This document shows, piece by piece, positions 1 to 9,206 of a stretch of 9,206 nt of DNA (position 1 is its first letter; each line of letters starts with the position of its first letter). Source of the stretch: Pseudomonadota bacterium (GTDB lineage: Bacteria; Pseudomonadota; Alphaproteobacteria; Sphingomonadales; Sphingomonadaceae); assembly GCA_023386515.1 (NCBI GenBank), contig JAEWJQ010000013.1, forward strand, positions 1 to 9,206, read 5' to 3'. The notes under the pieces are model-generated. The model worked only from the letters and a program-made list of their open reading frames with translations. It ran no database searches and was not told the DNA's origin. The position numbers were made by a program, and so were the translations under genes.

Positions 1-733
1 CGGGATTGCGGTGGCCGAGCGTCCAGATCTCCGGCCGGGCGTTGGCGGTTGCTGCGAAGGGATTGGCGGCCGCCGCGCTGCCGTCCAGGTTCAGCCGGAC
101 AATCTTGCCCAAAGTGCCGGACAAATCCTGTGCCGGCGTACCCTGTTGGCGTTCGCCGCTAGTGATGAAGAGATAGCGGCCGTCGGGCGAAAAGGCGAGG
201 CGCGCGCCGAGCTGCCCGCCGGTGGTCGTCGGCGTCGCGCGCCACACTATCGTCAGGTCATCGAGGCGGTTTGCCGTCAGGTTGAGCGTACCGCGTGCCA
301 CGGCGAGTCGCTGGCCGCCGGTCGCGGGCTCTGCATAGCTCAGCCACACGCGCCCGTTGCTGGCATAGCCTGGGTCGAGATCGACGTCCTGCAGCCCGAG
401 TTGTCCAGAATAGAAGACACTGGGCACCCCGGCGATGGCGGTCTTTGCGCCGCCGGTGGTCACCAGTTGCAGCCGCCCCGGCTTCTCGGTGACCAGCATG
501 CGCCCGTCGGGCAAGACAGCGATCGCCCAGGGATTGTCGAGGCTGGCGACGACGCGCTGGTCGACCGCCGTAACCGCGATTGCCGGCGTGGTGGCGGAGG
601 GCGAGGGACTCGGCGTGGGCGAGACGCTGGGGGTCGGCGATGGTGTCGAATCGATCGCACCGCCGCTATCGTCGCTACCGCATCCGCTCACCGCGAGCGC
701 CGCGAAGAGTGCCATTCCCCATCGGGTCGTCAT
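1..733 (-). CDS. PQQ-dependent sugar dehydrogenase-like lipoprotein (5' part, runs off left edge)
   Basis: Translating the minus strand from ATG at 731-733 gives 244 codons without a stop, continuing past base 1. Residues 1-18 are a short lipoprotein signal ending in lipobox V-S-G-C18, so the mature protein is probably membrane-anchored and periplasmic. Residues 28-50 are a Ser/Thr/Pro linker. From residue 61 the sequence matches the soluble PQQ glucose/aldose sugar dehydrogenase beta-propeller family (YliI/Asd type): SLDNPWAIAVLPDGRMLVTE at 64-83, GQLGLQDVDLDP at 110-121, RLAFSPDGRYLFITSGER at 178-195, LGKIVRLNLDG at 208-218, and GHRNP at 240-244 where the window cuts it. Known members oxidise aldose sugars with PQQ and calcium. 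The usual catalytic His, just before the G-x-R-L motif, appears to be Gln174 or Leu175 here, so activity is uncertain. AAAGGA at 741-746 lies 7 nt before the ATG. The family assignment is firm; the substrate is unknown. Confidence 0.9.
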   Translation of the reverse strand, partial: MTTRWGMALFAALAVSGCGSDDSGGAIDSTPSPTPSVSPTPSPSPSATTPAIAVTAVDQRVVASLDNPWAIAVLPDGRMLVTEKPGRLQLVTTGGAKTAIAGVPSVFYSGQLGLQDVDLDPGYASNGRVWLSYAEPATGGQRLAVARGTLNLTANRLDDLTIVWRATPTTTGGQLGARLAFSPDGRYLFITSGERQQGTPAQDLSGTLGKIVRLNLDGSAAAANPFAATANARPEIWTLGHRNP

Positions 734-860
734 GGCGCATTCCTTTATCGCTGTGCGGCGATCAACGACCGAACGATACTGAAGATGCGTGGCGATCAGC
801 GGAAAGAGATCGGCGCGCGCGAGGTGAAAGCATCGGACACTTCGCGGGGGCCGTGCAACC

Positions 861-2033
861 TTACCCTTCCGAACGGACCAGCTTGATGTCACGATCGGCG
901 GCCCAGCCCTGAATATCTTCGCGGCGAAGGGCCGTCGCCATCAGATCGGGAAACTGGTCGGGCGTGCAGGCGAACACGGGGATGCCCAGCGACGCGACCC
1001 GCGCCGCAAGATGTGGATCATAGGACGGTCGCCCTGTGTCGGTGATCGCGAGCAGCACGATGACGTTGACGCCCGACACCACCAGCCGGGCTAACCGGTC
1101 GACCAGCGCTTCGGCATCGCCGCCTTCGTACAGATCGGTGACGAGCACCAGATGCGCCTTTCCAGGCCGTTCGATCCGGTCCTCGCAATAGGCGACCGCC
1201 CGGTTGATCTCGGTGCCACCGCCCAATTGGACGCCGAACAGCACCTCGACCGGATCCGCCAATTCCTCCGCGAGGTCGACGATCGCGGTGTCGAAGCAGA
1301 CGAGCTTTGTGGCGACGACCGGCAGCGACGCCATGACGGCAGCGAAGATCGAGGCGTAGACCACCGAACTGGCCATCGATCCCGATTGGTCGACGCACAG
1401 GATCACCTCGTCCAGATCGACGATGCGCCGCTGTTGGCGCATGAAGCCGATTAGGCGTTCGGGAACCACCGTGCGATGGTCGGGCTGATAATGGCCGAGA
1501 TTGGCGCGGATGGTACGCGGCCAGTCGATATCGGCGAAACGCGGGCGGCTGCTCCGTCGCGCGCGATCGAGCGCGCCACGGATTGCGTCCGCCGTGCGTG
1601 CCTCCAGTCGGGCCAGCAACTCCGCGACCACCTTCGCGATCACGGCACGTGCTGTCTCTTTGGTCTTTTCCGGCATCACCTCGCGCAGAGCGATAAGATC
1701 GGCGACTAAGTTCACGTCTGCCTCGACCGTCGCCAGAAACTCTGGCTCCAGCAGCATCTGGCGCAAACCCTTGCGATGGAACGCGTCCTGCTGGATCACC
1801 TGAACGATCGGTACGGGGAAGAAGTCGCGAATATCGCCCAGCCATTTGGCGACCCTCGGTGCCGATCCGCCAAGCCCGCCGTGCCCCTTCTTTCCTTCCT
1901 CGCCGTCGCCGTAGAGCGCGGATAGCGCCTTCGACATGCGCCGATCACTTTCGGATAGGGGAAAGCCTTCCGCGTCGTCGCCCTCGACGCCCAAGGCGAG
2001 CGTCCAGCGGCGTCCGCGCTGGTCCGCGTTCAT
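861..2033 (-). CDS. VWA domain protein, CoxE/ViaA-like partner of the MoxR ATPase
   Basis: This 390-residue protein is the last gene of the operon. The C-terminal half is a von Willebrand factor A domain (about 205-375) with a complete metal-binding MIDAS: D215-Q-S217-G-S219 in VILCVDQSGSM, T274 in GGGTEIN, and D300 in LVLVTDLYEGG. The N-terminal half (about 60-200) is helical, as in CoxE/ViaA/NorD-type proteins, and has a flexible Gly/Lys/Glu-rich stretch at 42-57. There is no signal peptide or membrane segment, so it should be cytoplasmic. Family knowledge: such proteins pair with MoxR AAA+ ATPases and present substrates through the MIDAS metal. The ATG overlaps the upstream stop as ATGA (2030-2033). 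A GGGAG ribosome binding site at 2041-2045 lies 7 nt before the start. The partner role is inferred from the operon; the substrate is unknown. Confidence 0.93.
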   Translation of the reverse strand: MNADQRGRRWTLALGVEGDDAEGFPLSESDRRMSKALSALYGDGEEGKKGHGGLGGSAPRVAKWLGDIRDFFPVPIVQVIQQDAFHRKGLRQMLLEPEFLATVEADVNLVADLIALREVMPEKTKETARAVIAKVVAELLARLEARTADAIRGALDRARRSSRPRFADIDWPRTIRANLGHYQPDHRTVVPERLIGFMRQQRRIVDLDEVILCVDQSGSMASSVVYASIFAAVMASLPVVATKLVCFDTAIVDLAEELADPVEVLFGVQLGGGTEINRAVAYCEDRIERPGKAHLVLVTDLYEGGDAEALVDRLARLVVSGVNVIVLLAITDTGRPSYDPHLAARVASLGIPVFACTPDQFPDLMATALRREDIQGWAADRDIKLVRSEG

Positions 2034-4255
2034 CGTTGCGCTCCCGTCATCAGCGCGATCACGCGGGCTTCGTGCGCAGGCCAGATCGCGGTGGCCCCGG
2101 GCAACAGCCGATAGCTACGCGCACCGTTGCCGGATCGTCCGAGCGCGGCGTCCATCAATCGCCGACGCTCGTTGCGGTCAAGGGCGGAAAAGACCCGCCG
2201 GAACAGCGGCAGGTTGGCCACGAACGCGTCTTCCTCCAGCGCTAACAGCCAGGCGTCGACGGCGTCGCGCAAGGCCGCGTCGTGGATCAGCCGTTGTCCG
2301 GCGCCCTCCAGAAAACCTTCGAAATAGCCGGCCGCCTTGCTGACCGGCGTTCCCGGTGACAGTATACGGGCGAGCAGCGTCGCCGCGTCGTCGACGGACA
2401 GTTCCTCCGCCTCGTAGAGCAGGCGGGCGGCGGACCCGGCGATCAGGCGCGTCGTCTGCTCATCGTCGAACAGCTTGCGTAATGCCGCGTGCCAGATCGC
2501 GACCACGTCCGGTGCCAGTTCCGCCAGTTGGATCGCCCCTTCCGCCGCCAGGATCGTACCGCGCAGCGCCGCGGCGGCCTCGGCATCCAGGTTGCGTGCG
2601 GCATAAGGGAAGGCGAGCGCCGCCTGCACCACGATGCGGGGCATCAGTCCGGCGAGATGTTCGACCGTCCCGCTCCGTGCCTCGCCATAGCGCAGGATGT
2701 CGGCCATGGGCGGCAACGCGGCGAGCAGCGCCTGACAGTCGCTGGTGAGCGCAGCCAGATCTTCAAGCAGGGCAATACCGGCCTGGGTCGCGCGCGGAAG
2801 GTCTGCGATCATCGCCCGGCGTACCAGCGCCGCCAGCGCACCGAGATCGTCCTCCTCCCGCATCGCGTCGGTCAGCCGCCCGTCGGCGGCTTCGGCGATG
2901 GTCGAGCCATGGACGAGGTTCTCGACGAGTCGCACGGCAAATTCGGGCTGCCAGGCCAACACCCAATTCTCGCGGAAGGTGCCGCGACTGCGCCCAGCAT
3001 CGGCAAGACGGCCCCAAGGCACATCAAGCGCATCCAGTCGATGCAACAGCGTCGAGCGGGCCAGGCCGCTGTCGCTGCGCAGGTCGAGGGTCAGCGCGCG
3101 TTCCAGCGCTTCGGGCTTCAGCCGCGTGGCCCTTTGCTGGCGTTGCAGATCGTCCAGCAACGGGGCCAGCGGCGTGTCCGCGGGGATCACCCCGACCGCC
3201 GACCCGATCAGCAATTCGGCGGCGATGTCGTCCCATATCGCACGCTCGCCGTGGCACAGGCAGGCGATCGCCGCCTCGCGCAGTTCCTCGAAGCCGGGAT
3301 GCGGCCGCGCGCGCAGGGCGGCCAGCGCATGGCCCAAGCGCTGCGCGTCGATCACTGATGCGGTGGACACGAAGCGACCATGTTCGCGCATCACGCGCGC
3401 GATGCGGGCGAGCCAGATCGCGTCGCGATCACCGGCGTGGCGCGTGTCCCAGAGATGCGCGAACCATCCCGGCGCGACGACGCCGGCGGCATAGCCACTC
3501 CCGCGGGCGAGACGGGGTGCGGTCCAGGGTGCCCAGGTCGCCTTGGTCTTCGCCTTCGGACGCCCTTTGAGCAAGGCGCGGTCGGCGGAGAGGCTTACCT
3601 TGGCGGCCAGCGCGGGGACGTGCCACGCGCCGCACACTACGGCGACCGGGCCGTCGCTCTCCTTGGCCGCGCGCGCGATCTCAAGGCGCATATGCGCTTC
3701 CCGCGCGGCCTCCAGCCCCGATGGCGGACCGGCCTCGCAGCGCAGCGCAGTCATCGCATCGGCTACGGCGGCGAATACCGGCGTGGATGCCGGATTTTCC
3801 TCGATGACGTCGGCCCACCAGGATTCGCCATCGTCATATCCCGCCGCCATGGCGAGCACGCCGATCGGATCGCGGGTAATCGGATCATCGTCGGGGACGA
3901 CGTCCGGATCGTCGCCGTTGGCGGAGTGCTGGCCGCCCAGCCGATCCGACGAAGGAAGATCGATGAAGCGCAGCTCGGCGCCACGCGCCACCGCCCAGCG
4001 TACCGCCTGATATTCGGGTGAATAGTCCGCGAAGGGGAAGAAGCTGGCGCGGGCGGGATCGTCCTCGGCATAGGTCAGCAGCGCGACCGGCGTCGCCATC
4101 CCCGGATTGGCGAGCATTGGCAGCAGGTGTGAAGCGTCCGCCGGTCCCTCGATCAGCACCGCCGCCGGCCGTAGCGCGTCGAGCGCCTCCACCAGCCGGC
4201 GCGCCGAACCGGGGCCGTGATGACGCACGCCGAACAGCGATACCTCGGCCGCCAT
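2030..4255 (-). CDS. DUF5682 family protein with TIKI/TraB/EreA-like N-terminal motifs
   Basis: This 741-residue soluble protein is the largest in the operon. I recognise it as DUF5682 from G9-V-R-H12-H-G-P-G near the N-terminus, the IEGPAD strand end (E36), DYSPEYQAVRWA (76-87), RFIDLP (96-101), DPIGVLAMAAGYDDGESWW (129-147), GAWH (209-212), PRLARGSGYAAGVVAPGWF (247-265) and ENWVLAWQPEFAVRLVE (429-445). The first 215 residues contain GxxH (9-12), a strand-end Glu (36) and a second GxxH (209-212), the arrangement described for the TIKI/TraB/EreA superfamily, which includes a metalloprotease and an erythromycin esterase. The rest is mostly Ala/Leu-rich helix. Residues 111-128 are acidic and variable. 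The length fits what I recall for the family. The ATG lies 4 nt after the MoxR stop with no strong ribosome binding site, so translation is probably coupled. A hydrolase or effector role is inference. Confidence 0.9.
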   Translation of the reverse strand: MAAEVSLFGVRHHGPGSARRLVEALDALRPAAVLIEGPADASHLLPMLANPGMATPVALLTYAEDDPARASFFPFADYSPEYQAVRWAVARGAELRFIDLPSSDRLGGQHSANGDDPDVVPDDDPITRDPIGVLAMAAGYDDGESWWADVIEENPASTPVFAAVADAMTALRCEAGPPSGLEAAREAHMRLEIARAAKESDGPVAVVCGAWHVPALAAKVSLSADRALLKGRPKAKTKATWAPWTAPRLARGSGYAAGVVAPGWFAHLWDTRHAGDRDAIWLARIARVMREHGRFVSTASVIDAQRLGHALAALRARPHPGFEELREAAIACLCHGERAIWDDIAAELLIGSAVGVIPADTPLAPLLDDLQRQQRATRLKPEALERALTLDLRSDSGLARSTLLHRLDALDVPWGRLADAGRSRGTFRENWVLAWQPEFAVRLVENLVHGSTIAEAADGRLTDAMREEDDLGALAALVRRAMIADLPRATQAGIALLEDLAALTSDCQALLAALPPMADILRYGEARSGTVEHLAGLMPRIVVQAALAFPYAARNLDAEAAAALRGTILAAEGAIQLAELAPDVVAIWHAALRKLFDDEQTTRLIAGSAARLLYEAEELSVDDAATLLARILSPGTPVSKAAGYFEGFLEGAGQRLIHDAALRDAVDAWLLALEEDAFVANLPLFRRVFSALDRNERRRLMDAALGRSGNGARSYRLLPGATAIWPAHEARVIALMTGAQR

Positions 4256-4259
4256 CGCG

Positions 4260-5339
4260 TCAGATCAGCTCGGTTAGCGAGGCGTAATAGCCCTCGAACC
4301 CGCGGCGCTTCTTGAGCACGGTTTCCAGATATTCACCGAGCACCGCCTTGTCCTGCACCGGGTCCTTCACCACCGCGCCGATCATGTTGGCGGCCAGCAT
4401 GTCGGGCGTCAGGCGTCCGTCGTTGAAAAACGTCGCCTGGCTGATCCCGCCGACCATCACGCCGAGCGCCTCGGCGGTGGACAGCCCGCCCGAGGGGGAC
4501 TTCAGGGCGACCTTGCCGTCCTCGGTCGACCCGGAGCGCAGTTCGCGGAAGATCGCGACGACCCGCGCCACTTCCTCGGCGACGTTCTTCGGTGCGGGCA
4601 GGTCGAGGCTGTGCGCCATTTCGGCCACCCGCTTGACGATGATCGCCACTTCCTCGTCCGCGCTGTCGGGCAGCGGCAGGACGACGACGTTGAAGCGCCG
4701 CTTCAGCGCCGAACTCAGCTCGTTGACGCCCTTGTCGCGGTTGTTGGCGGTGGCGATGATGTTGAAGCCGCGCCGGGCATAGACTGCGCCGTTCAGTTCG
4801 GGGATCGGCATCATCTTTTCGGACAGGACGGTGATCAGCGTATCCTGCACGTCCGATCCCATCCGGGTCAGCTCCTCCATGCGGCACAGCTTGCCCGTCT
4901 CCATCGCTCGCATCAGCGGGGTCGGGACCAGCGCCTCCCGGCTCGGCCCATGCGCAAGCAGTTGCGCATAGTTCCAGCCATAGCGGACCTGATTCTCATC
5001 AGTGCCGGCGGTGCACTGGATCACCATCGTCGAATCGGCAGCGATCGCTGCGGACAGATGCTCGGACACCCAGGACTTGGCGGTGCCCGGAACCCCGAGC
5101 AACAACAGCGCGCGGTCGGTGGCGAGCGTCGCCACCGCCGTCTCGATCAAGCGCCGGTCACCGACATATTTGGGCGTGATGGCGGTGCCGTCGGGCGCCG
5201 TGCCGCCCATCAGATAAGTGACGACGCGCTTGGGCGACAACGCCCAGCCGGGCGGACGACGCTCGGTATCGTCCACAGCAAGCGCGGCGAGCTCGCCAGC
5301 ATAGACCTCCTCGGCGGGCAGGCGCAGCTTCTCGCTCAT
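4260..5339 (-). CDS. MoxR-type AAA+ ATPase
   Basis: This 359-residue cytoplasmic AAA+ ATPase is the motor of the operon. Visible motifs are Walker A GVPGTAKS (82-89), a Walker B-like strand LCRMEEL (151-157) where the usual Asp-Glu is Glu155-Glu156, sensor 1 IIATANNRD (194-202), and an arginine-finger candidate in ALKRRF (211-216). The NTP-binding core follows an N-terminal extension of about 60 residues; a helical lid region follows residue 230. Family knowledge: MoxR ATPases form hexameric rings and work with VWA partners (RavA-ViaA, NorQ-NorD, CbbQ-CbbO) to remodel proteins or insert metals. Here the VWA partner is two genes downstream, with the DUF5682 gene between. The start overlaps the DUF5691 stop as ATGA (5336-5339), and AGGAGA at 5348-5353 sits 8 nt upstream, giving it its own good ribosome binding site. 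Confidence 0.95.
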   Translation of the reverse strand: MSEKLRLPAEEVYAGELAALAVDDTERRPPGWALSPKRVVTYLMGGTAPDGTAITPKYVGDRRLIETAVATLATDRALLLLGVPGTAKSWVSEHLSAAIAADSTMVIQCTAGTDENQVRYGWNYAQLLAHGPSREALVPTPLMRAMETGKLCRMEELTRMGSDVQDTLITVLSEKMMPIPELNGAVYARRGFNIIATANNRDKGVNELSSALKRRFNVVVLPLPDSADEEVAIIVKRVAEMAHSLDLPAPKNVAEEVARVVAIFRELRSGSTEDGKVALKSPSGGLSTAEALGVMVGGISQATFFNDGRLTPDMLAANMIGAVVKDPVQDKAVLGEYLETVLKKRRGFEGYYASLTELI

Positions 5340-6742
5340 TCGGTCGGTCTCCTGATGTCGAGCGCGGCGTTGAGCCGCAGCATGTCGAGGCGCGGATCGG
5401 AGGCGACCAGCCCCGCCGCCGCCAAATCGTTGAGCGCCTGTCGCGCAGCACTGCGCGAGGCGATGAGGCCGAGGGCCAGCAGCGCGTCTGCGTGATCGCC
5501 AGGTCTAGCATCCTCCGATGCCAGCAAGCCAAGCAGCGCCGTGCCTGCGGCGGTGCGGATCGCTTCATCGATCCCGCCATCCCCGCCGACGATCGCCAGC
5601 GCCATCGCAAAGCTGGTGTCCTGCGCGCCCAGCAGTCGCGTCGCGACCTGACGGCGCCGGTATGGTGTCAGGCGGGGTGACAGCTCCACCAGCGTCTGTG
5701 CATCGATCGTGCTGGCGACACTAGCCGCGTCGGCGACCATGTCGACGATCCTATCGCTGCCGGATCGCGCCGCCATGGCCGCCAATTGCTGATCGCCGAA
5801 CAGATCCTGGCCCCAGGGCCAGGCGGCGGTCAGATCCGTCGCGGACAGGCCGAGCGCCTGCGCAAACCCGTCGTAGGATAGTGTCTCAAACAAGGTGGCG
5901 CGGCGATTTCGCCGGGCGGGGGTCTTCAATGCTTCAGGGACGATCACGCGCGTGCGTCGCAACAGGCCCTTGGTCTGGATGGTGAAGAAGGCGGCGAGGT
6001 CCATGCCATCCTCATCGCCGCCTCCGCCGTGACCCAGACGCGCCAGCAGCGCGATCGCCAGCTCCTTGACCCTCGCGCCCCGGTCGCCGGTCAGACGCTC
6101 CAGTAGCGGGCGGTCGACGTCGGACAGCGCTGTGGCCAGTGTCTCGAGCAGGCGCAGACGACGATCGGCGGACTCACCGGCGATCTTGTCCATCAGCAAA
6201 AGGCTTGCCTGTGCGGGGTCCTGTTTTCTTAGCGCAGCGAACGCCGCATGCCTTGCGGCAGGAGCGAACTCATCCCAATTTTCGATGCTCAGTGTCTCGG
6301 GGGCCACCGAGGCGGATCCTGCCGCGGCGGCCCAGTCCTGCCATGCCGCATAGACGGCGGGCACGTCTTCATCGGGCCGGGGCATCCAGTCGCCCGGATG
6401 CAGGCTCCAGCCGCGTGCGTCGATAAAATCGAGCAGATGGCGGCGCGTCCGCGCATCGCGGATTTGCTGGAGCAGGCGTCGTGCACGCGGGCGAAGTGCG
6501 TCGGGAAGTGGCGGCTGGGCAAGCGCCGGAATGTCGCCACGCGGACGAACCTCACCCACAGGCTGCGCAACCGCCAGCGTGCCGAGCAACTGGCCGGACA
6601 GCGCCAGCAGCCGCAACTCCGCCTCCCGCGCATCGGTGTCCAGCGCATCGCGCCAGTCGGCAGGGGCGTGAGCGGCGGCGCTGCCGCCCATCGTCCAGCG
6701 CGTCAGCACCGGGCCGAGCGCGTCGAGGATCGCGTCAGCCAT
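5336..6742 (-). CDS. DUF5691 family protein, HEAT-like helical repeat
   Basis: This 468-residue protein has no signal peptide or membrane segment. It matches my memory of DUF5691, found beside SWIM, MoxR, DUF5682 and VWA genes. The clearest part is residues 154-236: an ENW/EF/AP.AR start, then ALRKQDPAQASLLL (170-183), RRLRLLETLATALSDVD (194-210) and DRGARVKELAIALLARL (220-236). This helix-pair pattern looks like HEAT-type repeats, which usually bind other proteins. Residues 238-246 are a Gly/Asp loop. The C-terminal third is again Ala/Leu-rich helices with repeated S/R-L-A-type pairs. No catalytic motif is visible. The ATG (6740-6742) overlaps the end of the SWIM gene by 8 nt. I infer a scaffold or adaptor for the ATPase or the effector. 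The family name is from recall. Confidence 0.85.
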   Translation of the reverse strand: MADAILDALGPVLTRWTMGGSAAAHAPADWRDALDTDAREAELRLLALSGQLLGTLAVAQPVGEVRPRGDIPALAQPPLPDALRPRARRLLQQIRDARTRRHLLDFIDARGWSLHPGDWMPRPDEDVPAVYAAWQDWAAAAGSASVAPETLSIENWDEFAPAARHAAFAALRKQDPAQASLLLMDKIAGESADRRLRLLETLATALSDVDRPLLERLTGDRGARVKELAIALLARLGHGGGGDEDGMDLAAFFTIQTKGLLRRTRVIVPEALKTPARRNRRATLFETLSYDGFAQALGLSATDLTAAWPWGQDLFGDQQLAAMAARSGSDRIVDMVADAASVASTIDAQTLVELSPRLTPYRRRQVATRLLGAQDTSFAMALAIVGGDGGIDEAIRTAAGTALLGLLASEDARPGDHADALLALGLIASRSAARQALNDLAAAGLVASDPRLDMLRLNAALDIRRPTE

Positions 6743-8114
6743 GGCCGATCCGCCCCCAAGGCGTCTGCATCGCCAGCATCTCCAGCCGGTTGCCCGACCA
6801 TAAGGCGGCCGTGCGGGTCAGCTCAGTTCCGGTGACAAGCCCCTCGGCATCGTCCGCCAGCGGCAATGCTGCTCCTCCGGCAGACGGTTGCCACCAGGCT
6901 TGGCGGTTCCGATCGAGGCCGATCCGTCCGGAGGGGAGTAGAACTGGCCGCTCCGTCGCCCATGGCTCGGCGAGCAGCGGTGCGGTCAGCGTTTCCTCCA
7001 GCGCGACATCCGGCAGGGGCCATTCGAGTGGCGGCCCATCGACACATGCCACGTCCCGCTGGATCAGCAGGGCGCGCAGGGGCATGCGCGCCGGGTAGAA
7101 CAGCATTTCGCCAACGAACTGCTCGCCCGGAGTGAATGCCGAATGGCGTCGCCCGGCGCTGGCCGGAAAGAAATCAAGCAGCATCGCGAAGCGCGGCCCG
7201 CTGGTCAGGTTGAGCAGCCAGGTCGTCTGCGAGACCAGCCCGTCGCGACGCGTACGAACCCGCTCCGCGAGCACTTCCCAGGCGGCGGTCACGCGTGTCG
7301 GCGCTGGATCGGCCAGCAGCGTCTCACGGTTCTCGGCCGAAGCGACGACGCGGCGCAGTTCTGGATCACGCGGGTCGGCCCGGAACCCTCGGGCGAGTAG
7401 CACCAGTCGCGCCAGTTCCACCGTCGCGCCGCGCACCCTGTCGCCACTCAGCAAAGCCAGCAGCCGCGCGGGCATTTCATCGACATGACCGGCCAGCGCC
7501 GCGGCCTTGCCGTCGACCAGCCGTGCCGCGATCCGACGACAGCGTGCGGTCACATCATCGACGAAACCGCCAAGCCCCAGACGAAGTTGATCGCTGACCC
7601 ATTGCTCCAACGCATCCAGCGCGTCGAGGATCAGACGCTCGGTATCTTCGGTTCGCCGAGCGCTGGCCGCGTTGCGCCGTGCCGTCGCCCCCGGATCGTC
7701 CGCGGGCTCGGGCCCGGCGGACCGGGCGGCCTCCAGATCCTTGTCCGCAGCCGGTTTCACGGCCTTGGGTGCAGCGCCGGTCGGGCGCCGACGTGCCAGC
7801 CATTCGCCCACCCATTCCGGGGTTTCCGCCACGGCGAACGCAACGATCGCCTCCGCCCTCAGCCAGAACAGTCCAAGGGCGTGTTTGCATGGTATTTTGC
7901 GGGACGGGCACGTGCATTTGCTTCCCATGTCGCGAAGGTCGGCCATCACCCGATAGGGATTGGCCCCCGATCCGGCACATTCGCCCCAGATCAGCCCCTC
8001 GTCATCGCTGGTGCCGACGCCCAACCATTTCCCCGGCTTCGCGAGCCCGGCGGCGGCGTTTAGCGATGCCTGGTCGGGGGCAAGCTGTTCCACCGCCTCC
8101 AGATCGATCGTCAA
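6735..8114 (-). CDS. SWIM zinc-finger family protein
   Basis: First gene of the operon, 459 residues from the TTG at 8112-8114. The SWIM zinc-binding motif C67-T-C69-x6-C76-K-H78 (CxCxnCxH) is intact and followed by ALGLFW. Before it come ECAGSG (46-51) and NPYRVMADL (52-60), typical of this bacterial family; WVGEWLARR (101-109) follows. Residues 110-155 are an Ala/Pro/charged low-complexity linker, then helices (about 159-240), and a C-terminal part with short beta-like stretches. Family knowledge: SWIM domains bind DNA or proteins. Here it may be the recognition subunit of the complex. Start choice: the frame stays open to another TTG at 8169-8171, just after a TAA. The inner TTG has GGAGG 4 nt upstream, and the next residues (TIDLEAVEQLAPDQ) are where the family usually begins, so I prefer it. 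The extra 19 residues are Gly/Ser-rich and unlike the family. Confidence 0.92.
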   Translation of the reverse strand: MTIDLEAVEQLAPDQASLNAAAGLAKPGKWLGVGTSDDEGLIWGECAGSGANPYRVMADLRDMGSKCTCPSRKIPCKHALGLFWLRAEAIVAFAVAETPEWVGEWLARRRPTGAAPKAVKPAADKDLEAARSAGPEPADDPGATARRNAASARRTEDTERLILDALDALEQWVSDQLRLGLGGFVDDVTARCRRIAARLVDGKAAALAGHVDEMPARLLALLSGDRVRGATVELARLVLLARGFRADPRDPELRRVVASAENRETLLADPAPTRVTAAWEVLAERVRTRRDGLVSQTTWLLNLTSGPRFAMLLDFFPASAGRRHSAFTPGEQFVGEMLFYPARMPLRALLIQRDVACVDGPPLEWPLPDVALEETLTAPLLAEPWATERPVLLPSGRIGLDRNRQAWWQPSAGGAALPLADDAEGLVTGTELTRTAALWSGNRLEMLAMQTPWGRIGHG

Positions 8115-8123: not shown

Positions 8124-8193
8124 GACCCCGGTCCCACCTTCGAATGATAAGGCGAGACCGCGAAAGCTCAAGGCGGTTTACACCCTTGGAAGG

Positions 8194-8214
8194 TCTGAAC
8201 AGCAATGGTTCAGA
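8194..8214. repeat. Inverted repeat in the operon leader (7-bp perfect arms)
   Basis: TCTGAAC, a 7-nt loop AGCAATG, then GTTCAGA. It could be a second operator, or an RNA hairpin in the leader transcript upstream of the SWIM ribosome binding site. No T run follows on either strand, so it does not look like an intrinsic terminator. Confidence 0.55.
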
Positions 8215-8231
8215 AAATGTCCAGACATTTT
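8214..8231. repeat. Inverted repeat, operator-like (8-bp perfect arms)
   Basis: AAAATGTC-CA-GACATTTT is a perfect 8-bp inverted repeat with a 2-nt centre. It lies just downstream of the promoter candidate and shares base 8214 with the next inverted repeat. A further ACATTT copy follows at 8234-8239, nine bases after the one at 8225-8230. Position and symmetry suggest a binding site for a dimeric regulator; no regulator gene is recognisable in the window. Confidence 0.6.
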
Positions 8232-8762: not shown

Positions 8763-8776
8763 CCTTGCCGGCAAGG
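8763..8776. repeat. Perfect 14-bp palindrome
   Basis: CCTTGCCGGCAAGG reads the same on both strands. It lies in the non-coding stretch, with an imperfectly placed stem (GTCGGC ... GCCGAC, 8784-8802) just to its right. It could be a protein-binding site. A palindrome this long has a modest chance of arising randomly in a window this size, so significance is uncertain. Confidence 0.4.
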
Positions 8777-8832
8777 AGCAGTGGTCGGCTCCGCTGGCCG
8801 ACATCAGGTGAACGAAGCCGGGCATATCAAAT

Positions 8833-8855
8833 GGGAGGATGGGGGTGGGGGCGGG
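8833..8855 (+). other. G-quadruplex motif
   Basis: Four G runs (GGG, GGGGG, GGGGG, GGG) with loops of 5, 1 and 1 nt meet the usual G-quadruplex pattern on the plus strand. It is in the gene-free stretch, 119 bases beyond the end of the partial gene at the right edge, on the strand opposite that gene's coding strand. Function unknown; high-GC genomes carry many such motifs by chance. Confidence 0.45.
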
Positions 8856-8973
8856 CCGCGACCCCAGCCAGGCGAACGTACCGTACGTATAGGGTCGGCT
8901 CGTCAGGCTACTCTTATGCACGATCCGCTCGGGTGGGGAGCCGAACTAAGGTCGCTGAGCGGGTGCATGTCTC

Positions 8974-9206
8974 TCATCGAATTTGGGTCAGCACGTCGAT
9001 CAGCGCGGCCTCGAGGCTTCGCTCATAGCCAGCCTCGGAAGTGCGCTCGGCGCCCAAGATGCGCGCAGCCCTCCGAACCCGCTGATGCGGTACGCCTATC
9101 CTGACCGCGAGTTCGATGTTCGTGACGAAGCGTCGTGCGAGCGCCTCGACATCGGCGATCGGTACCAGGGGTAGATTGCCCGTCGAGTAGCCGCGCAGTA
9201 CTTCGG
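8974..9206 (-). CDS. C-terminal fragment of an unidentified protein with HTH-like segment
   Basis: The minus strand has one frame open from the right edge to TGA at 8974-8976, giving 76 residues; the other two frames contain stops. Codons mostly end in G or C, as expected for a gene in this DNA. Residues 29-51, NIELAVRIGVPHQRVRRAARILG, have the spacing of a helix-turn-helix, after LPLVPIADVEALARRFV (11-27); the tail ERSLEAALIDVLTQIR looks like one helix. This layout resembles the end of TniQ-like or other DNA-binding proteins of mobile elements, but the match is from general pattern only. The start is outside the window. I cannot name a function. Confidence 0.5.
   Translation of the reverse strand, partial: EVLRGYSTGNLPLVPIADVEALARRFVTNIELAVRIGVPHQRVRRAARILGAERTSEAGYERSLEAALIDVLTQIR

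Follow-up and report, generated by a model that had tools for sequence, protein, structure and literature searches.

A five-gene MoxR-VWA operon of Sphingomonadaceae with a TIKI-like DUF5682 protein, counterpart of yehLMPQ and very probably of ddrTUVWX

We analysed a stretch of 9,206 nucleotides from a bacterium of the family Sphingomonadaceae (contig JAEWJQ010000013.1 of assembly GCA_023386515.1), hereafter the window, which encodes on its minus strand a SWIM zinc-finger protein, a DUF5691 protein, a MoxR-type AAA+ ATPase, a DUF5682 protein and a VWA protein. By comparing these genes with their relatives, we found support for the view that the five families are inherited together as one system. 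The operon appears to code for an ATP-powered, five-protein MoxR-VWA machine of the yehLMPQ and ddrTUVWX kind, and it is already on record, with no function assigned, as yehLMPQ in Escherichia coli and very probably as ddrTUVWX in Deinococcus. What our analysis adds is the TIKI-like assignment of DUF5682, the recognition that yehLMPQ and the five-gene operon belong together and the link to DUF5691. With moderate confidence, we lean towards a reading in which a MoxR-VWA motor would gate the putative hydrolase DUF5682, with SWIM-DUF5691 as the recognition half, in the recovery from stress or DNA damage.

Co-inheritance and modules of the five families

By scanning genomes with a DUF5682 profile, we matched at least 589 stretches, 553 of them encoding relatives, and kept the best 80 loci. 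In 68 of these 80 closest loci, the five families are complete, run in the order SWIM-DUF5691-MoxR-DUF5682-VWA and lie on a single strand; since so many share order and strand, the arrangement is not due to chance. Nine of the remaining 12 loci end at a contig edge where the absent genes would lie, which leaves three real exceptions: a DUF5682 gene alone with about 10 kb flanking it on each side (L064), one with no partner within 6.6 kb upstream and its downstream side cut by the contig end (L070), and one with DUF5691 sitting 164 bp before it and no MoxR in between (L074).

Because the 80 loci are the closest matches, we additionally sampled five phyla (706 genomes, each sample including one centre genome chosen as positive). 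DUF5682 scored above the cut-off in 10/200, 10/149, 7/117, 21/121 and 13/119 genomes, that is, a patchy 61 of 706 with the five positive centre genomes included. First, MoxR lay upstream of DUF5682 on the same strand in 55 of the 59 neighbourhoods fetched (within 350 bp in 54, at 1.9 kb in L195). Second, VWA was present in 52 of the 59 (fused to DUF5682 in five, 7.7 kb distant in L173). The missing MoxR and VWA genes are explained by three cyanobacterial loci (L189, L191 and L192) and otherwise by contig ends; in the cyanobacterial genomes concerned (G007, G423 and G359), where DUF5682 stands alone, both a MoxR (62, 55 and 55% identity, respectively) and a VWA gene (56, 43 and 44%) are encoded elsewhere. 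Third, a SWIM protein of either type was recognised in 39 neighbourhoods and DUF5691 in 26. DUF5691 itself was above the cut-off in 5/200, 13/121 and 9/149 genomes of three samples, and all 27 of these (3 of them centres) were also DUF5682-positive. It was above the cut-off in 0 of the 429 genomes without DUF5682 in the same samples, with sub-threshold matches only in three, an absence that is not absolute since a loose first pass decides which top candidates the search goes on to score. Among 14 control genomes, DUF5682 was found in E. coli and Deinobacterium chartae, and DUF5691 in the latter only. Together, these data show that, across phyla, the genes are inherited together and keep their synteny. 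The possibility, raised in an earlier note on this DNA, that the families usually occur apart therefore failed for DUF5682 with MoxR and VWA as well as for DUF5691, although lone DUF5682 loci do exist (the three cyanobacterial ones and L070).

The survey also separated several arrangements. Type A is that of the window, while in type B, the E. coli type, MoxR-DUF5682-VWA goes with a SWIM protein of the YehQ family (E. coli and nine survey loci) and with DUF4132-family proteins nearby (again E. coli and nine survey loci), WGR and DUF4132 being recognised by Pfam in 3/3 tested. The homology of YehQ to the type-A SWIM protein extends past the zinc motif (profile comparison, Prob 95.3, E 2.2e-08, 172 columns) and was found only in this way, the window SWIM protein giving no BLASTP match to YehQ. 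The same comparison of DUF5691 with YehI revealed no relation (E 0.11). A tree of DUF5682 proteins places the type-A set (32 plus 7 unassigned; support 0.80) apart from type B (11 plus 1 unassigned; support 0.96). A third group has DUF5682 fused to VWA (L181, L183, L212, L216 and L218; 5/59 loci). SWIM and DUF5691 share one frame in L182 (1/59 loci), and the SWIM-DUF5691 half is encoded divergently in L174-L176. Such fusions and divergent halves point to two modules, SWIM-DUF5691 and MoxR-DUF5682-VWA, and fit the earlier proposal of separate motor, recognition and effector parts. Another divergent variant, with the order VWA-MoxR-DUF5682 and a DUF5682 of about 900 residues, was seen in the Chloroflexota sample centred on G009 (L207, L208 and L209).

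In the window itself, all five open reading frames (ORFs) were found where the earlier note had placed them (Table 1), and so were their junctions: an 8-nt overlap for SWIM/DUF5691, 4-nt overlaps for DUF5691/MoxR and DUF5682/VWA and a 4-nt gap for MoxR/DUF5682. All five products scored above the Pfam cut-off. The longest ORF of the SWIM gene opens at 8171, but the alternative TTG start at 8114, the one already preferred in that note, looks better because Sphingomonas relatives have a GTG (L002 and L004) or an ATG (L003) at the same place. The SWIM, Walker A, sensor-1, arginine-finger and metal ion-dependent adhesion site (MIDAS) motifs are all intact and, with few exceptions, conserved among relatives. 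The ATPase carries Walker A GVPGTAKS (Lys kept in 54/55 survey proteins), the sensor-1 Asn and a KRRF arginine finger, to which we add a Walker B of the form hydrophobic-E-E instead of D-E, with the first E kept in 55/55. The MIDAS reads DQSGS / T / D, its D/S/S/D being found in 51/51 survey VWA proteins with letters there and its T in 48/51, and the SWIM Cys and His ligands are kept in 28/28. With these ATPase motifs, a MIDAS-bearing VWA protein encoded alongside and sequence resemblance to midasin and NorQ, the ATPase is a MoxR protein with a VWA partner. The closest relatives of the window are Sphingomonas, the nearest DUF5682 proteins being a metagenome protein (99%) and that of Sphingomonas sp. 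CLY1604 (90%).

The DUF5682 domain and the proposed mechanism

The AlphaFold model of DUF5682 (pLDDT 88.1) has a helical C-terminal half according to a fold search. Since this half filled the search made with the whole length, the N-terminal domain was folded alone, and the alpha/beta core of TIKI proteins was present in it. By profile comparison, the domain matched TraB/GumN (PF01963; hhalign Prob 72.7, E 3.2e-05, 193 columns), whereas the best of 60 column shuffles reached E 0.011 and the reversed control 0.036. This value comes from a rebuilt alignment, a former one made from poorly chosen ORFs having given E 0.059. A Pfam ChaN match was obtained in just 2 of the 59 DUF5682 proteins (best E 0.12), and sequence searches of the PDB yielded nothing relevant. 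Six residues of the domain are invariant (H12, E36, E81, D99, R185 and H212), and H12, E36 and H212, found in 59/59 survey proteins, are in register with the TIKI/TraB/ChaN/erythromycin-esterase superfamily. Unlike that superfamily, DUF5682 lacks Glu at the fourth position of the 2His/2Glu motif, for which D99 and E81 are candidates, and its domain is fused to a long helical-repeat region and encoded beside a MoxR-VWA pair. In both fold and profile, the N-terminal domain is thus similar to the TIKI superfamily, its catalytic-type residues are conserved, and it appears to have the TIKI/TraB/ChaN hydrolase fold. What had first been read as hydrolase-like motifs in the large protein is hence borne out as a TIKI-like domain, as judged from sequence and model.

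In the mechanism that we favour, MoxR would form an ATP-driven ring. In NorQD, a VWA protein is reported to dock on the MoxR ring and pass on its movement (PMC13036017); by analogy, the VWA protein of the window may dock on its ring as NorD does on NorQ and transmit the ring movement, while its MIDAS could grip a client or DUF5682 itself. DUF5682 would do the catalysis, as a hydrolase dependent on a metal or on His/Glu and probably a peptidase or esterase, and the motor would gate or feed it. Because DUF5682-VWA fusions exist, the hydrolase would be the natural recipient of the motor movement. SWIM and DUF5691 would make up the recognition half, with a WGR-DUF4132 protein presumably taking the place of DUF5691 in type B. 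Most likely, the system would remodel or cleave proteins in the recovery from stress or DNA damage, rather than insert a cofactor into one client enzyme.

A bolder version, which we judge improbable, is an AAA+-driven protease machine, widespread in bacteria and serving the recovery from DNA damage. SWIM-DUF5691, or WGR-DUF4132 in the E. coli type, would recognise proteins at damaged nucleic acid, and the MoxR-VWA ring would pull these and feed them to DUF5682, acting as a TIKI-family protease. If true, ddrTUVWX and yehLMPQ would have a function in common and, to our knowledge and from a search that was not exhaustive, no MoxR motor coupled to a TIKI hydrolase would have been known before. As far as we know, many MoxR-VWA pairs are without a known client. 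Since DUF5682 appears to share its fold with known hydrolases and keeps active-site-type residues conserved, it lends itself to the design of point mutants and assays, and the question is approachable in E. coli K-12 because the same core is encoded there.

The window system shares with NorQ-NorD and other MoxR-VWA chaperone pairs a MoxR ATPase with a MIDAS-bearing VWA partner. A maturation chaperone could be considered, in which MoxR-VWA inserts a metal into one client or opens it, as NorQD, CbbQO and CoxDE do, and DUF5682 is a catalytically dead adaptor. The VWA protein is indeed of CoxE type, the ATPase matches NorQ by sequence, NorQD provides a worked example of such a pair (PMC13036017) and the relative ChaN binds haem, as the title of a database entry has it. 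However, unlike the NorQ-NorD type, the window system has further conserved proteins and no recognised client enzyme next to it. Of 40 neighbour clusters listed, 15 were looked at, and neither among these nor in the window did a client enzyme gene turn up. The 15 comprised the type-B partners, parts of ABC transporters, short-chain dehydrogenases, response regulators, further families that are broad or bound to a lineage, and three clusters without a Pfam name. As no common client enzyme stood out, a cofactor inserter for a single client is mildly disfavoured. Moreover, catalytic-type residues invariant in 59/59 DUF5682 proteins are not what is expected of a dead adaptor, and we regard the chaperone as rather unlikely. 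The same His/Glu set of the TIKI-like domain would be left unexplained if the proteins formed a protein-quality or regulatory complex, with SWIM and DUF5691 binding nucleic acid, the motor remodelling nucleoprotein and DUF5682 serving only as a scaffold through its helical repeats. This possibility, suggested by the SWIM motif, the WGR domains of type B, the helical C-terminal half of DUF5682 and the DNA-damage regulation described for Deinococcus, seems to us quite unlikely.

Finally, MoxR-vWA pairs are also the core of ternary conflict systems, which are multi-component, with VMAP, iSTAND, FtsH or a beta-propeller as third component (PMC7159879). The window system has such a core plus further components in common with them, so that the statement of the earlier note that known MoxR/VWA pairs have simpler partners overlooks this class. 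An anti-phage or conflict role with DUF5682 as toxic effector, conflict being among the functions suggested in that note, would agree with the patchy presence of the system in the sampled genomes. Nevertheless, no VMAP, iSTAND, FtsH or beta-propeller domain and no STAND partner scored above the Pfam cut-off in the five proteins (Pfam coverage of VMAP being unchecked), and the bpMoxR domain stayed below it. PADLOC returned just weak matches of the ATPase (best 0.0026), and the variable effector domains of the ternary type were not seen, the same gene set recurring without effector swapping in 68 of the 80 closest loci. Since the gene set is fixed and the PADLOC result weak, the conflict system is disfavoured, and we hold it to be very unlikely.

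Counterparts in E. coli and Deinococcus, and regulation

The E. coli K-12 genes yehL, yehM, yehP and yehQ form a four-part sister type, with orthologous MoxR, DUF5682, VWA and SWIM genes together (42, 30 and 36% identity for the first three, YehQ being homologous by profile). It differs from the window in that the SWIM gene comes last, DUF5691 was found neither beside yehLMPQ nor in the E. coli control genome, yehI (DUF4132) and yehF (WGR) lie upstream instead, and its DUF5682 belongs to another clade. Reportedly, yehM gained mutations in copper-evolved E. coli (PMC12409786) and yehQ was among the genes examined for butanol tolerance (PMC6442406), weak hints neither of which shows a function. 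No paper naming DUF5682 or DUF5691 was found in the literature searched, and none on the system as a whole was among the matches listed, the Deinococcus operon excepted, subscription journals lying mostly outside both searches.

That operon is ddrTUVWX of D. deserti, five genes from Deide_18730 (SWIM) to Deide_18690 (VWA CoxE-like). As described there, it is radiation-induced in an IrrE-dependent manner, carries a radiation/desiccation response motif (RDRM), has homologues in D. gobiensis, D. maricopensis and D. peraridilitoris and is given no function (PMC5552922). By this published description, it agrees with the window in gene count, first gene and last gene, which supports the stress response put forward in the earlier note. 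Our reading also offers a testable mechanism for this radiation-induced operon. In another study, a DUF4132 gene and a WGR gene of D. radiodurans are reported to be under DdrO (PMC8533742). Plasmid p_TS293_3 of D. taeanensis (L259) encodes the five families in the order of the window (MoxR 63%, VWA 51%, DUF5682 40% and SWIM 33% identity; DUF5691 29% over 92 residues), but with an extra 237-bp ORF (8765-9001 of the locus) between its AAA and DUF5682 genes. By using the RDRM consensus as printed in PMC8533742, we found a single match in L259, with 2 mismatches, which occupies 4742-4756 and thus lies 20 bp ahead of the SWIM start (4777); 0.12 matches were expected in the 20-kb locus and 10 of 100 shuffles contained one. 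A separate scan of L259 with a 17-mer, whose best score of 12/17 was reached at two places, proves nothing alone because 36 of 200 shuffles equalled it. In contrast to ddrTUVWX, which is reported to be under IrrE/DdrO control, the window has no RDRM with up to 2 mismatches allowed.

Control by LexA/SOS was rejected for the taxa covered. With box motifs that we took to be of LexA type, the regions upstream of 96 type-A SWIM genes contained 0, 1 and 1 alpha, gamma and actinobacterial boxes, compared to 0.31, 0.21 and 0.46 expected; the window contained 5 alpha boxes (one mismatch) versus 5.55 expected and 4 actinobacterial boxes versus 2.94. Upstream of the SWIM gene, an AT-richer stretch holds a perfect 8-2-8 inverted repeat, AAAATGTC-TG-GACATTTT (8214-8231), resembling RDRM half-sites. 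Among the 96 upstream regions scanned, no other contained its core ATGTC...GACAT with that spacing.

Features of the window and its surroundings

Table 1. Features of the five-gene operon in the window.
Feature	Positions	Strand	Evidence
SWIM zinc-finger protein, first gene, counterpart of yehQ and probably of ddrT	6735..8114	-	Pfam SWIM 2.6e-07; YehQ profile E 2.2e-08
SWIM zinc ligands CTCPSRKIPCKH (CxCx6CxH)	7881..7916	-	motif reading
DUF5691 protein, partner specific to the type-A system	5336..6742	-	Pfam 1.2e-21
MoxR-type AAA+ ATPase, YehL orthologue (42% identity)	4260..5339	-	AAA_5 1.4e-36; YehL 3e-80
DUF5682 protein, YehM orthologue, N-terminal TIKI-like domain and C-terminal helical repeats	2030..4255	-	Pfam 2.2e-211; AlphaFold
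TIKI/TraB/ChaN-like putative hydrolase domain, DUF5682 residues 1-260	3476..4255	-	
C-terminal helical-repeat part of DUF5682, residues 433-707	2135..2959	-	
VWA_CoxE-type co-chaperone, MIDAS intact, YehP orthologue (36% identity)	861..2033	-	Pfam 5.9e-52; YehP 1e-74

The system was encoded in none of the contigs of a viral set (viral_contigs), and a search of phage DNA gave no match. PHROGs families match DUF5682 and VWA, and a DUF5682 protein of 28.5% identity is encoded in a 14-kb record from human faeces that has no annotation and is labelled 'Bacteriophage sp.', possibly a mislabelled bacterial contig (MT835988.1, 10659-12755). Directly downstream of the VWA gene, the window encodes a truncated protein of the glucose/sorbosone (PQQ-type) dehydrogenase family (2-892, minus strand).
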